Shown here: positions 4,735-13,097 of the stretch, one piece after another | How the letters are laid out: each line of letters starts with the position of its first letter | Position numbering within the stretch: the first letter of the stretch is position 1 | Notes under the pieces: model-generated | What the model saw: only the letters and a program-made list of their open reading frames with translations | What the model was told of the DNA's origin: nothing | Databases searched by the model: none | Origin: a virus | DNA length: 22,432 nucleotides | Virus record (IMG/VR): IMGVR_UViG_3300002835_001194 | Coordinates: 1 to 22,432 of that record | Strand: one strand, 5' to 3' | Position numbers and translations under genes: made by a program

Positions 4735-5238
4735 ATGAAATTAATTAATTCACTTTTTTATCTTATTAATGAAACAAAACTTGACGTAGATAAAACGTTA
4801 CCATTAATTACAATATTTCAAATAGATAATAATTTAATTCGATTATATTCAACAATACACCAATCAAAAGAGCGACACGGCTCAGAAACTTTAAAACAAA
4901 TTAGAAAAAGATACCACGATAACGAACTAAGAAATCCTGTAAATTTTGACAGAGTAGGAGTTCCAAATCATATTATTAAAGATATCTTTGAAAAAGATTT
5001 TGAACAAATAAAAAAAGCATTTGAATTTTTATCAACTAAAAATAATGACAAGGTTTTAATTGTAAAAAATATTGGAGAAGAATATGATTTAGATGAGAAT
5101 ATGAAATATGTTGAAATTTTAATAGCATCTTCTGATTTAAAAAAGTATACCATAATAACATCTTTGTTTTCAAAAGATGGTGATATGTTTAAAACATTTA
5201 ATTACAATAAAAAATCCCCGAGATTTAAGTTACGTTAA
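4735..5238 (+). CDS. Unknown protein with a possible cleavable leader
   Basis: A 167-aa hydrophilic protein of no family I recognise. It starts MKLINSLFYLINETK, which ends in I-N-E and resembles the short (I/L)-x-E leaders on other proteins in the window and on T4 internal proteins. The middle (about 41-75) contains HQSKERHG and a basic RKRYHD stretch, vaguely like small RNase toxins, but no catalytic set can be assigned. The leader reads ACATATTTATTAAT before the ATG. It is downstream of the sulfotransferase gene and converges on the metallopeptidase gene, 7 nt away with no visible terminator. Confidence 0.65.
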   Translation: MKLINSLFYLINETKLDVDKTLPLITIFQIDNNLIRLYSTIHQSKERHGSETLKQIRKRYHDNELRNPVNFDRVGVPNHIIKDIFEKDFEQIKKAFEFLSTKNNDKVLIVKNIGEEYDLDENMKYVEILIASSDLKKYTIITSLFSKDGDMFKTFNYNKKSPRFKLR

Positions 5239-5245
5239 CTATAAT

Positions 5246-5650
5246 TTATTCTTCACCGTAAAGAAGTTCTTCATATTTTGGAAAAGTTTTTTCGAATTTT
5301 TTAACAAAAATACCTGACAAGGTATTTGCCATATTTTCCTCAGGACCTCCAATATCTTTTACTTTATCGGTATCTTTAAGTCCCATTTTTTGGTGTTGAT
5401 ATTCGTGAACCCACTCGTGAGATAATGTTCTTAATACATCAATTAATAATCTTTTACCAGCAAGAACTGAAATTTCACTACCAGGTTTTCTAACACCTGT
5501 AGTCATTGGGCCTTCTTTTTTTTCTAAAAAAGTAATATAGATATCATTATTTAATGGTAATTGAGAACTTAAAAACTTGGTAAAGTCTTTAAATACCTCT
5601 ATTTGATTTGGAGTATATAAATTATTAACTTGTTTGAGACACGCTTTCAT
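5246..5650 (-). CDS. Small zincin-like metallopeptidase
   Basis: A 134-aa protein with the zinc-protease signature HEWVH (residues 78-82, in a helix LRTLSHEWVHEYQHQ). GGPEENMAN (101-109) follows, whose Glu could be the third zinc ligand about 22 residues later, as in HExxH-x(n)-E zincins. The rest is small, with no signal peptide or transmembrane helix, so it would act in the cytoplasm or inside the virion. The proteolytic target is unknown; a virion-maturation or host-protein role is guesswork. The 19 nt before the ATG nearly repeat the leader of the tiny ORF at 3500-3553. That leader overlaps the stop region of glf, so glf lies downstream of this gene's start but ends before it on the opposite side of the leader. 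Confidence 0.7.
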   Translation of the reverse strand: MKACLKQVNNLYTPNQIEVFKDFTKFLSSQLPLNNDIYITFLEKKEGPMTTGVRKPGSEISVLAGKRLLIDVLRTLSHEWVHEYQHQKMGLKDTDKVKDIGGPEENMANTLSGIFVKKFEKTFPKYEELLYGEE

Positions 5651-5669
5651 TGTTAATAAATATACTTAA
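5651..5669 (-). repeat. Conserved 19-nt leader, copy 2
   Basis: Minus-strand TTAAGTATATTTATTAACA directly before the ATG at 5650 matches the copy at 3554-3572 at 18 of 19 positions and overlaps the glf stop codon. It contains TATATTTA, a weak match to both the Bacteroidetes -7 box and late-promoter-like AT motifs, but lies too close to the ATG for a normal leader. Confidence 0.5.
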
Positions 5670-6775
5670 TCCGTGATTTCACTAATTTTTTTCAAAGCTT
5701 GAGCAATTATTTGATGCATATCGTAATAAACATATGTCCCTAATCTTCCACCAAAAATATACTTATCAAGACCTTTGGTTAGTTCTTGGTACTTGTTGTA
5801 CATCTCTGTATTTTTAGTGTCTCTAATCGGATAATATGGTTCATTGGTACCATCGTAGTCTGTAGGATATTCACGACTTATAATCGTACCTTTTTGATTC
5901 TGAGGGTCAAACCATTTATGTTCAAGTATTCTTGTATATGGAACTTCAGAATCAGTATAATTGATAACAGGATTTCCTTGGAAGTTATCCTGTTCAAGTT
6001 GTTCTGTTTCCCATCTTAAACTTTTATATTCTAATTTACCGTACTGATAATCAAAGAACTTATCAATTGGACCAGTATAAATCACCTTATCGGCAATTGA
6101 GTTATAATAATCTTTGTGGTCAAAATAATTTGAATTTAATAGTACATCAATACCTTCCAACATTTTCTCAAATATTTGAGTATAACCACCAATTGGAATT
6201 CCTGTATATTTGTCATTGAAGTAATTACTATCCCAAGTAAATCTAACAGGTAATCGTTTAATTATAGATGGTGGTAATGAAGTACATGGTCTATTCCATT
6301 GTTTCTCAGTATAACCTTTAATTAGTTTTTCATAAATGTCAGTACCAACCATTGACATTGCCTGTTCTTCAAGATTAGTTACAGTTCCTTTAAACTTTTG
6401 TTTTTCAATAATATTATTTGCGTCTTCAGGATTTGTTACTCCCCACATTTGATTAAATGTCCACATATTAAAAGGTAATGTATACATCTCATCTTTGTAG
6501 TTAGCAATAACATTATGAGTATATTGTTTGAACTCGGCAAATTGGTTCACATAATCCCACAACTTTTTATCGTTTGTGTGGAATATGTGAGCACCGTAAG
6601 AATGAACGTGAATACCATTAATATTTTTGGTATAACAATTTCCACCAATATGATTTCTCGAATCAATAACCAAACATTTCTTACCTTGTTTTGTTAATTC
6701 ATAAGCACATACTGAACCAAACATTCCTGCACCTACTATTAGATAATCATATGATGGTTTAATTGGTAAAATCAT
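5666..6775 (-). CDS. glf: UDP-galactopyranose mutase
   Basis: A 369-aa, full-length enzyme that interconverts UDP-galactopyranose and UDP-galactofuranose using reduced FAD. The N-terminal dinucleotide-binding loop is GAGMFGS (15-21), followed by the acidic end of strand 2 (VIDSRNHIGGNCYT). SYGAHIFHT (about 59-67), the Trp/Tyr-rich middle and a C-terminal GRLGTYVYYDMHQ segment are all typical of bacterial UGMs. The start is ATG 6775. It is the last gene of the minus-strand glycan island. An internal 65-bp segment (5966-6030) is repeated with three mismatches at 6891-6955, just upstream of the gene. It probably supplies galactofuranose for the neighbouring glycosyltransferases. Confidence 0.93.
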   Translation of the reverse strand: MILPIKPSYDYLIVGAGMFGSVCAYELTKQGKKCLVIDSRNHIGGNCYTKNINGIHVHSYGAHIFHTNDKKLWDYVNQFAEFKQYTHNVIANYKDEMYTLPFNMWTFNQMWGVTNPEDANNIIEKQKFKGTVTNLEEQAMSMVGTDIYEKLIKGYTEKQWNRPCTSLPPSIIKRLPVRFTWDSNYFNDKYTGIPIGGYTQIFEKMLEGIDVLLNSNYFDHKDYYNSIADKVIYTGPIDKFFDYQYGKLEYKSLRWETEQLEQDNFQGNPVINYTDSEVPYTRILEHKWFDPQNQKGTIISREYPTDYDGTNEPYYPIRDTKNTEMYNKYQELTKGLDKYIFGGRLGTYVYYDMHQIIAQALKKISEITD

Positions 6776-6779
6776 TTTT

Positions 6780-6955
6780 TTATGTATGAAAAAAAATTAC
6801 AGGATGTCTATCATCATTTTTAGGGTTTTCTTCAGTAAAATAATAAAGAGCAATTGAATCCCTATTAATATCTGAAGGAGCATTTAATGGAACAGGATTT
6901 CCTTGAAAGTTATCCTGTTCAAGTTTTTCTGTTTCCCATCGTAAACTTTTATATT
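6780..6955 (-). pseudogene. Chimeric gene remnant: glf internal fragment fused to oxygenase tail
   Basis: The gap upstream of glf is made of two copied pieces. Positions 6781-6898 match 8149-8266, the end of the 2OG oxygenase gene, with two mismatches in 118 bp. Positions 6891-6955 match 5966-6030, inside glf, with three mismatches in 65 bp. The pieces join in the shared octamer AACAGGAT (6891-6898). The two reading frames agree, giving a fused peptide that runs from SLRWETE through NFQGNPV into PLNAPSD and ends FFHT with a stop at 6780-6782. There is no start codon, and the left piece begins inside glf sequence, so it is a remnant. The stop codon of the heptosyltransferase gene (6949-6951) lies inside it. 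Confidence 0.85.
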
Positions 6956-8130
6956 AATTTATTTTGTTTTAATTTTTCAATTACCATTTTTGGTGATATT
7001 TTTCTACTACACTCAAAATTTTTATTTTCAGGACAAAAACTTCCGTGATAGCAACATAGTTTATCTGCGTGTTCTTTGGAATTAAAACATCCAGTACATG
7101 CGTTGTAGTTTTTTACTCTGATACAATCTTCTTGAAACTCATACCAATCTTCGGTAAATCCTCCAATCATAACAGTTTTTTTTCCAACTGACCACGATAA
7201 CCAAGATAAACCGGAACACAAACCTATAAAAAATTCACAATGTTTTAAATACCATATACGGTCAGATAATGGAAAATCGCCATTTCTTTTTGTAATATTT
7301 TTTATGTCAGATTTTTCTTTGGATATTGAAACAATCTCATATCCAAGTTTTTTTAATTCTGGTATTAAAGTTTTCCAACCAATTTGATTATTCCATTCTT
7401 TCATCCCTAAAGATGATGAGAATTCAGATATACATATGTATTTTTTTTCAATTGGACGTTCTTCGGATGCATTATCAAAATTTGGTCTTATTTCTTTAAA
7501 TTCTAAACCTAAAATATTTGATGAGGTTTTTTGTAATGGAAATAATAGTGGATGTTCTGGATGTTTATCAACATCAAAAAAAGTTAAATCAGAAGCATAT
7601 TTTATGTTAATACCTTTTTGAAAATTTTGATTTAATTTTTTCATATATTCTTTATGAACTGAACTATTAATTCCAACACCAATTGAATATATCGCATATA
7701 CACCATCATCATTTGAGTTTGTATCAGTTAAACCTTTCCAAGTAATTTCATTATAATATGACTTAAAAAACTCATATAATTTTGTTTCAACAATTAACTC
7801 ACAATTATGTTTTTTTCTGAATTCATCACAATATGGTACCCAACCAATATTATCACCCAAAGCATTACTTTCTAATATAATTTTTACAACTTTATTATTT
7901 AAGTTTAACTCTTCTAAAAATACCTCAACACCATTTTTTAAAATTACAATTTTCCAATTGGTAAAATATTTTCGGGATGTCTTAGTCCAATATCCACATC
8001 TAAGTTGTTCTCTGTGAATTAACTCATTATTTGTGTTATCGTAGAATAAGACATCATATGTAAATCCATCATTACCAATGATGTCAACACTTGCTCCATC
8101 AATATATGATGTTCTAAAAGTTGTTTCCAT
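6949..8130 (-). CDS. TibC-like (autotransporter-type) heptosyltransferase
   Basis: A 393-aa GT9-like glycosyltransferase resembling the autotransporter heptosyltransferase family (TibC/BAHT). Residues about 45-70 hold a beta region (YWTKTSRKYFTNWKIVI). SNALGDNIGWVPY (88-100) matches the family's NALGD acceptor-side motif, and ISEFSSSLGMKEWN (234-247) and IGLCSGLSWLSW (302-313) match the nucleotide-sugar side. The C-terminus carries clustered cysteines (345, 348, 359/360, 366, 374), as in the Cys4 iron finger of TibC. Known members add heptose to adhesin proteins; a protein acceptor such as a tail fibre is inferred. It is flanked by 118-bp direct repeats, and its last two codons lie in glf-derived DNA, so it looks like an inserted cassette. 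Confidence 0.75.
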   Translation of the reverse strand: METTFRTSYIDGASVDIIGNDGFTYDVLFYDNTNNELIHREQLRCGYWTKTSRKYFTNWKIVILKNGVEVFLEELNLNNKVVKIILESNALGDNIGWVPYCDEFRKKHNCELIVETKLYEFFKSYYNEITWKGLTDTNSNDDGVYAIYSIGVGINSSVHKEYMKKLNQNFQKGINIKYASDLTFFDVDKHPEHPLLFPLQKTSSNILGLEFKEIRPNFDNASEERPIEKKYICISEFSSSLGMKEWNNQIGWKTLIPELKKLGYEIVSISKEKSDIKNITKRNGDFPLSDRIWYLKHCEFFIGLCSGLSWLSWSVGKKTVMIGGFTEDWYEFQEDCIRVKNYNACTGCFNSKEHADKLCCYHGSFCPENKNFECSRKISPKMVIEKLKQNKLI

Positions 8131-8147
8131 TTATTTAAATTATTTTT

Positions 8148-8876
8148 CTATGTATGAAAAAACATTACAGGATGTCCATCATCATTTTTAGGGTTTTCTT
8201 CAGTAAAATAATAAAGAGCAATTGAATCCCTATTAATATCTGAAGGAGCATTTAATGGAACAGGATGACCGTGTAATGAATCATCACCTATTGTAAAAAT
8301 AACAACTCTATTAAAAATTGGTTCTACTTTAACTTCAGCATTTTTCATGTTTTTATCCCATAATTCAAGATTACCTTCCCATTCACTTTTCCAATCTTTA
8401 TTGAGATAAAGTAATAAATTCAATCTACGATATATTTTTTTAAGTGGATGAACAGTATAATCTTTGTGTATTGATAATTTACCACCACTCTTAATTCTAT
8501 GAAGTCCACCACCCATTAATAATTCATCTGCCATTAAATTTTTAATGCCCGTTAACTCTTCTAAAAATTTTAACATCTCAGGAGAATTTAAATAATTAAT
8601 TAATGTTGAAGTTACAGGTAAATCTTTTGGCATATTGTTAGCGCTTTCAACATCGTGAGGCCAATAAAATTTATTAACTTGAAATGGTTCTGTCCATTTT
8701 ACAGTATCGTAAGCCCAATTTTTATTTTTATCTATTTCACTAATAACTCCATTTAATATGGATTCAGGTAAAAAGTTATCAATTACAATATATGGGAATG
8801 GTCTTGCCACTTGATATTGAGTTGAAAATTGTTTGGATATATTTAAATTTATCATACTATTATTAATTAAAATCAA
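8148..8876 (-). CDS. 2-oxoglutarate/Fe(II)-dependent oxygenase
   Basis: A 242-aa protein with the double-stranded beta-helix core of prolyl-4-hydroxylase-type oxygenases. The metal triad is visible as HKD (His137, Asp139) and His202 in SLHGHPVP; Arg216 in NRDSIALYY would bind 2-oxoglutarate. GGGLHRIKSGGKLSIHKD and RRLNLLLYLNKDW are typical family segments. It would hydroxylate a protein or sugar using O2 and 2-oxoglutarate. It overlaps the end of the upstream glycosyltransferase gene by 14 nt. An alternative ATG at 8855, 7 nt after that gene's stop, would remove the overlap and give 235 aa. Its last 39 codons are duplicated near glf. Placed among glycosyltransferases, it may prepare or alter a glycosylation site. 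Confidence 0.85.
   Translation of the reverse strand: MILINNSMINLNISKQFSTQYQVARPFPYIVIDNFLPESILNGVISEIDKNKNWAYDTVKWTEPFQVNKFYWPHDVESANNMPKDLPVTSTLINYLNSPEMLKFLEELTGIKNLMADELLMGGGLHRIKSGGKLSIHKDYTVHPLKKIYRRLNLLLYLNKDWKSEWEGNLELWDKNMKNAEVKVEPIFNRVVIFTIGDDSLHGHPVPLNAPSDINRDSIALYYFTEENPKNDDGHPVMFFHT
8149..8266. repeat. 118-bp direct repeat, partner of 6781-6898
   Basis: This is the 3' end of the oxygenase gene, duplicated 1,368 bp away with two mismatches. The two copies are in direct orientation and bracket the heptosyltransferase-like gene, so recombination between them would delete that gene while leaving both glf and the oxygenase intact. Confidence 0.9.
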
Positions 8877-10020
8877 ATTTTATACTATCTAAATTGATAG
8901 TTGGTTGTTTTATTTTATTTTCAATTTTATCCTTATATTCAATTAAGAAATTACTAGTGTCTGTGTAACATTTTCCTTCAATTAAATAAGAATAATTAGG
9001 GAATGGATTTCTTCTTTGAGGGTTTTTCATAATATCAATAATCTCAAGAATTTCTTCAAACATGTTCTTCTCTTCAAGGTAATAACAAAGATACATATAA
9101 TGTTCATTTCTACCAGGAGAGAATTGTTCCGCTAAATTGAAATACTCCATAGTTTTTTGATGGTCACCCATAAATCCATGAGCTCTTGCCATTAAAATAC
9201 AAGCAATATAACACATCTCATCTTGTCTTAACGACACTTTATTTTTATCCCACGCTTTAGTTGTTTCCAAACATCTTTCAAAGTACCAAATAGCTCTTCT
9301 TGCATATTCATCCGAATGTTGTTTTCCAAATGGAAGTTCATCAGGATTACCATAACAATCAGAATAACTCTTAGCTAAATACCACAAATGATAATGGTCT
9401 TCCAATACAGTATTACCAACAACTTTATCAATTTCTAATTCTAATGCATCTCTTAAAAATTTTCTTGGGACATACCAAGTTTGTCCATCTTGAGAAACTA
9501 AATGTCTAAATCCATAAGGCATTGTTCTTCTTTCAAATTCTTCCCCTATTTCAGGTAAATGAATTGTTTCGTGTCTTTTATCGTGTTGAAAGAACCAAGG
9601 TCTTTTAGCATTCCATAACCAAGTTCTAAAATATTTTAAATCACCAGTTTCAGCAACAAGATTATAACTATCAACAGAAGTATTGTCAAAAATAGACCAA
9701 TCAAAATCCTCATCAACGTGAAGTCTTTCATCCGCATCCATTCTTAAAATCCAATCACAACCGTGGTCAGCCTTTAAACACTCTTGTAAAGTATGGTCTC
9801 GGTTATAACCAGGAAACTGCCACGCAATTTCATACAAAAATCCAGGTATATTTTTTTCTTTGAAGAAATTTTTAATAATATCTTGTGTTCCATCTTTGGA
9901 ACCATTATCTTGTATTACCCAATAATCTATGTATCTATAACACGATTCCAACATTCTGGTTATTGTTGGTGCTTCATTTGCGACCATCGCATTTAAGCAA
10001 ATTTTTGTTTTTTTATTCAT
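8863..10020 (-). CDS. Family 2 glycosyltransferase with helical-repeat tail
   Basis: A 385-aa protein. The N-terminal ~200 residues are a GT-A domain: CLNAMVANEAPTI opens it, the nucleotide-binding strand ends at QDNGSKDGT (37-45), and the metal-binding DxD is MDADERL (94-100). The C-terminal ~150 residues are helical and TPR-like (ARRAIWYFERCLE, MARAHGFMGDHQKTMEYF). This architecture, GT2 plus TPR, is common in protein or peptide glycosyltransferases and in phage GTs. It overlaps the next upstream gene by 8 nt, so the two are translationally coupled. The donor and acceptor are unknown. Confidence 0.85.
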   Translation of the reverse strand: MNKKTKICLNAMVANEAPTITRMLESCYRYIDYWVIQDNGSKDGTQDIIKNFFKEKNIPGFLYEIAWQFPGYNRDHTLQECLKADHGCDWILRMDADERLHVDEDFDWSIFDNTSVDSYNLVAETGDLKYFRTWLWNAKRPWFFQHDKRHETIHLPEIGEEFERRTMPYGFRHLVSQDGQTWYVPRKFLRDALELEIDKVVGNTVLEDHYHLWYLAKSYSDCYGNPDELPFGKQHSDEYARRAIWYFERCLETTKAWDKNKVSLRQDEMCYIACILMARAHGFMGDHQKTMEYFNLAEQFSPGRNEHYMYLCYYLEEKNMFEEILEIIDIMKNPQRRNPFPNYSYLIEGKCYTDTSNFLIEYKDKIENKIKQPTINLDSIKFDFN

Positions 10021-12470: not shown

Positions 12471-12492
12471 AGTTTTATTGGATTTGTTGATA

Positions 12493-12524
12493 CAAAGATA
12501 CTAATTATATTTGACTTTACAAAA
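12493..12524 (-). promoter_or_regulatory. Bacteroidetes-type promoter of the 12470 gene
   Basis: On the minus strand, -33 TTTTG and -7 TATCTTTG (TAnnTTTG) are separated by 19 nt and end 22 nt before the ATG. The spacer contains AAAGTCAAAT, which also occurs at the same distance from the -7 box in the promoter at 13035-13066. This fits host sigma-A-type recognition in Bacteroidetes. Confidence 0.75.
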
Positions 12525-12545
12525 AAAAATCCCTCGATTGAGGGA
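12521..12545 (-). terminator. Intrinsic terminator after the 12552-13010 gene
   Basis: A 6-bp stem (TCCCTC/GAGGGA) with loop GATT is followed on the minus strand by nine T residues. It starts 6 nt after the gene's stop and overlaps the -33 box of the next promoter. T residues on the other side would let it act in both directions. Confidence 0.8.
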
Positions 12546-13010: not shown

Positions 13011-13034
13011 AATCTTTTTCTTTATTTGTGTTCA

Positions 13035-13066
13035 CAAAGATAATAATAAGATTTGACTTTGCCAAA
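13035..13066 (-). promoter_or_regulatory. Bacteroidetes-type promoter of the 13010 gene
   Basis: Minus-strand -33 TTTG and -7 TATCTTTG, 20 nt apart, end 24 nt before the ATG. The spacer shares AAAGTCAAAT with the promoter at 12493-12524, each time 8 nt before the -7 box, suggesting a common regulator site or family of promoters. Confidence 0.75.
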
Positions 13067-13097
13067 TAATATTTATATTAATATAGATTATTATAAT

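Follow-up and report, generated by a model that had tools for sequence, protein, structure and literature searches.

Illegitimate and homeologous recombination are well described in phages (PMC2327257, PMC2993671), as is segmental tandem duplication delimited by microhomology (PMC13096335); the published case is an unstable amplification of recent origin, under selection and accompanied by a homing endonuclease. Most joins left by phage mosaicism cannot be read, being either too old or too clean. Here we analyzed a 22,432-nucleotide stretch of an uncultured phage (IMG/VR record IMGVR_UViG_3300002835_001194, hereafter the window) in which a gap of about 180 bases between two sugar-modification genes is a patchwork of leftovers from two neighboring genes. 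Both parents of the join are visible, and it is therefore possible to reconstruct in part how a glycosyltransferase gene came into an operon and left its neighbors unbroken.

As in described mosaic joints (PMC2327257, PMC2993671), the window displays cargo at a gene boundary, very short homology, and no visible mobile-element signature. Unlike those joints, it retains readable leftovers of both parents, and its resident glf survives beside a truncated copy. Segmental tandem duplication (PMC13096335) likewise has a short shared sequence delimiting the repeat unit and a truncated gene at the border; the window differs in that it appears to record an old, single event in which the spare copy was replaced by another gene, with no endonuclease seen nearby. 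The patchwork, termed here the scar, is a real, unusually legible but ordinary case of known phage mosaicism rather than a new system, because gene ends left over in a comparable way occur at two other loci.

Results and Discussion

Genes of the island

The minus-strand operon runs in the order gt2, gt1, oxygenase, heptosyltransferase, scar, glf (Table 1), with the oxygenase matching PF13640. Compared with the Aah/TibC family (TIGR04414), the heptosyltransferase scores above the curated cut-off (231.4 versus 200 bits) in a profile match of two stretches, the best of which reaches profile position 372 of 374, and its sequence also matches 4rap, a solved TibC entry; its gene, however, resides in a phage island beside glf and two glycosyltransferase genes. 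The preliminary description had placed the stop codon of this gene inside glf-derived DNA, and the TAA is indeed part of a glf-derived TATAAAAG read in another frame. The encoded protein nevertheless has the full length expected of the family, so nothing important was lost. The last codons resemble those of the homologue in locus L184, whose protein extends two residues further.

Table 1. Coordinates of the scar and surrounding genes within the window
Feature	Position	Strand	Remark
glf, UDP-galactopyranose mutase, intact	5666..6775	-	5966-6030 is the source copy; TIGR00031
Oxygenase repeat continued through the stop codon into the first 7 glf bases	6769..6780	-	10/12 versus 8137-8148
Copy of oxygenase 3' end	6781..6898	-	118 bases, 116 identical to 8149-8266
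Copy of glf interior	6891..6955	-	62/65 identical to 5966-6030
Octamer AACAGGAT (gene strand ATCCTGTT), the join	6891..6898	.	common to glf and the oxygenase gene
Heptosyltransferase gene, Aah/TibC family	6949..8130	-	stop codon 6951-6949 within glf-derived DNA
Heptosyltransferase gene leader	8131..8148	-	resembles glf leader and start, ATG to ATA
2OG-Fe(II) oxygenase gene	8148..8858	-	in-frame ATG first occurs near 8852; source copy at the 3' end, 8149-8266
Glycosyltransferase gt1	8863..10020	-	immediately before glf in relatives; forms the insertion's left border (2.09 kb)

Structure of the scar

Read on the gene strand, the heptosyltransferase stop is followed by 65 bases of glf interior and then by 118 bases of the oxygenase 3' end, the composition originally proposed for the gap. 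Three mismatches (6906, 6926 and 6941) separate the glf copy from its source and two (6795 and 6809) the oxygenase copy. The glf match extends weakly, with a 2-base gap, to 6961/6038. The oxygenase repeat is longer than first noted, continuing past the stop codon, where 6780 and 8148 differ, down to 6769/8137. Independent searches recovered both direct repeats with self-BLAST E values of 1.5e-57 and 1.9e-24, which exclude chance.

The join had been assigned to a shared octamer, and this assignment holds: similarity to each parent stops on either side of the 8 shared bases at 6891-6898. As a special hotspot the octamer was rejected, with glf and the oxygenase gene sharing 58 octamer pairs and stretches of up to 12 bases. 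The reading frame is unbroken across the join, as claimed earlier (KSLRWETEKLEQDNFQGNPV/PLNAPSDINRDS...FFHT-stop, with the slash at the join), and the octamer occupies the same codon phase in both genes; this continuity carries little weight, since a random join keeps the frame 1 time in 3. No ATG, GTG or TTG occurs in the frame spanning the join, and "in-frame" therefore has no coding meaning here. Nor does the term "chimeric" imply a product, a functional chimera being ruled out by the missing start codon.

Relatives and the 2.09-kb insertion

Closer glf relatives in IMG/VR have the order gt2-gt1-glf. Comparison of the same locus uncovered scar-free versions in about a dozen of them, in which gt1 is followed immediately by glf and the stop and start codons of the two mostly overlap; gt1 ends at, or a few bases from, the glf start in L004, L008, L009-L014, L019 and L020. 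Window gt1 ends in ...TTTGATTTTAATTAA and window glf keeps AAATGATTTTA, as in L014. Thus, the oxygenase gene, the heptosyltransferase gene and the scar together constitute an insertion of 2.09 kb, placed precisely between gt1 and glf. Collectively, insert-free relatives and the 8-base join support the earlier proposal of microhomology recombination between two genes of the same island.

The oxygenase gene has moved, as its closest homologues (73 and 70%), found in L004 and L009, are located upstream of a gene that fuses methyltransferase with gt2. Between gt2 and glf, L005 has a glycosyltransferase fused to an oxygenase domain (50%). Heptosyltransferase homologues (34-44%) are located downstream of glf in L005-L007, and the best one (47%) is that of L184, a locus devoid of the other island genes searched for. 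Profile searches, which returned many homologues at roughly 33-73% identity, found the oxygenase-heptosyltransferase-glf order in no record; single-sequence searches found no close relatives of the oxygenase or heptosyltransferase, and homologues of the two in named phages were only distant. Among relatives the gt1-glf state is common, and neither parental arrangement (gt1-oxygenase-glf alone, or oxygenase-heptosyltransferase-truncated glf) was found. Degenerate-pattern searches for the exact join, which may have left out near-identical records, returned only tail-fibre-type ORFs from viral_contigs and only unrelated frames from genome_contigs. In records of 44 relatives, all matches to scar DNA were explained by ordinary oxygenase tails plus one glf.

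Fusions of island genes also occur in relatives, joining oxygenase to glycosyltransferase (L005:2940-4793) and methyltransferase to gt2 (L004:3019-4854, L009:3022-4854), and heptosyltransferase homologues there lie within open frames of 764-1234 codons.

At all three sites where scar and window glf differ, a small number in 65 bases, the scar carries the base of L005 and not that of window glf, and the glf part of the scar has no private substitution. This pattern mildly favors a second phage, or an older state of glf, as the source of the scar alleles. The suggestion that DNA of a related phage was involved is therefore compatible with the data and mildly favored. Window glf itself shows a patchy relationship to L004 and L005, a pattern that frequent recombination of glf would produce.

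Proposed origin and rival explanations

The scar is likely the dead remnant of a gene capture via ectopic recombination in a phage glycosylation island. Under this proposal, an oxygenase gene would have arrived between gt1 and glf. A single exchange at ATCCTGTT would then have joined glf interior to oxygenase 3' end on separate DNA molecules, the partner being a co-infecting relative or a sister copy, to give the order oxygenase, truncated glf, oxygenase tail, intact glf. Before or after this exchange, the heptosyltransferase gene would have replaced most of the truncated glf, so that its first bases and a piece from about codons 247-270 were left. The phage would thereby gain a gene and retain a working glf. 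Remnants of glf do flank the heptosyltransferase gene, with first bases before it and codons from about 247 to 270 after it. The match ahead of the gene is short and AT-rich: the repeat fixes the register, in which its leader AAAAATAATTT agrees with AAAAATGATTT, the leader and start of glf, at 10 of 11 positions, and 0 of 600 other 11-mers from gene leaders of the window reached 10/11 against the glf leader and start. Because the leader matches the start of glf and a glf piece follows the gene, the heptosyltransferase gene seems to sit inside a former second glf copy whose core was replaced.

Tandem duplication within one genome is a serious possibility, albeit one we hold to be short of probable. 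Slippage at the octamer would have doubled a segment of about 0.93 kb that extends from oxygenase 3' end to glf interior, after which the heptosyltransferase gene would have taken the place of the spare glf part. Such an event would be expected to join glf interior back to oxygenase 3' end at 8 shared bases, the two scar parts have diverged to a similar extent (3/65 and 2/118), and duplication with microhomology borders has been reported in phage T6 (PMC13096335). Of the duplication unit, the window retains the start (oxygenase tail and glf start) and the end (glf interior), with the heptosyltransferase gene in place of the middle. Agreement of the scar with L005 at 3/3 sites, however, means that every change would have had to occur in the functional glf while the dead copy stayed unaltered, a requirement that speaks against duplication.

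Misjoining of two strains in the sample during assembly or library construction is very unlikely. The window is a metagenome contig and the exact join is absent from the other records searched, as an artifact would predict, but the join shares only 8 bases, too few to mislead a k-mer assembler. Furthermore, neither copied part is identical to its counterpart elsewhere in the window, so they are not duplicates of the same assembled sequence, and both neighboring genes are full length and intact. It is also very unlikely that the gap has been kept for a function, for example as a leader for glf expression or as a repeat through which the heptosyltransferase gene could be reversibly lost and regained. 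The 130-base direct repeats flanking the cargo would support precise excision to gt1-oxygenase-glf; against a function, the scar is conserved in no relative, and both of its substitutions within the oxygenase frame are nonsynonymous. No terminator was found in the scar and promoter-like matches were no more frequent than in shuffled sequence, and a role as regulatory element was accordingly rejected. With neither an in-frame start codon nor a promoter or terminator signal, the scar is probably inert. The 130-base direct repeats, spaced 1368 bases apart, could nonetheless let the heptosyltransferase gene be lost again by homologous recombination.

Comparable leftovers at other loci

A survey of 118 non-redundant loci (1.1 Mb; 1,280 ORFs including the window) revealed comparable leftovers at two other loci, L112 and L062. 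L112 has the order exonuclease, oxygenase 1, exonuclease-tail copy, oxygenase 2, where the exonuclease tail (L112:4960-5035 and 5758-5833) is copied between two divergent tandem oxygenase genes in the same topology as in the window. In L062, a galE tail remnant of 39 codons (L062:2200-2316), 79% identical to galE at 5170-5898, directly follows full galE near glf. Other self-repeats in the relatives inspected were not scars, being mostly collagen-like or tail-fibre sequences, shared N-terminal peptides, and leader repeats at gene starts.

The rate implied by the two additional leftovers suggests that gene-end remnants next to cargo genes could be surveyed systematically. That large phages of this kind generally duplicate, then replace, with ectopic exchange doubling a resident gene and newcomer cargo taking the spare copy, is a speculative and rather doubtful extension of these findings. 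If true, the resident gene would never be lost, leftover repeats would make the cargo removable again, and the process would leave partial gene ends beside cargo genes as fingerprints, as in the window, L112 and L062.

Other repeats in the window

Repeated leaders with TATCTTTG (form TAnnTTTG) were observed upstream of genes in the window (12473-12530 and 13015-13072) and in L013 (590-631 and 1960-2002); we take them to resemble Bacteroidota promoters. The decamer TTATCTTTGT, with at most 1 mismatch, was not over-represented in the window as a whole. Unrelated proteins have a common N-terminal peptide, LTENDLxxIVKRVIxE (window 17523-17870/18993-19967, 10-76/576-642; L221:1-447/2839-3333), which might act as a tag for sorting or packaging, comparable to the T4 capsid-targeting sequence. 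In L221, the peptide is shared together with about 60 bases of leader, the DNA being 89% identical.
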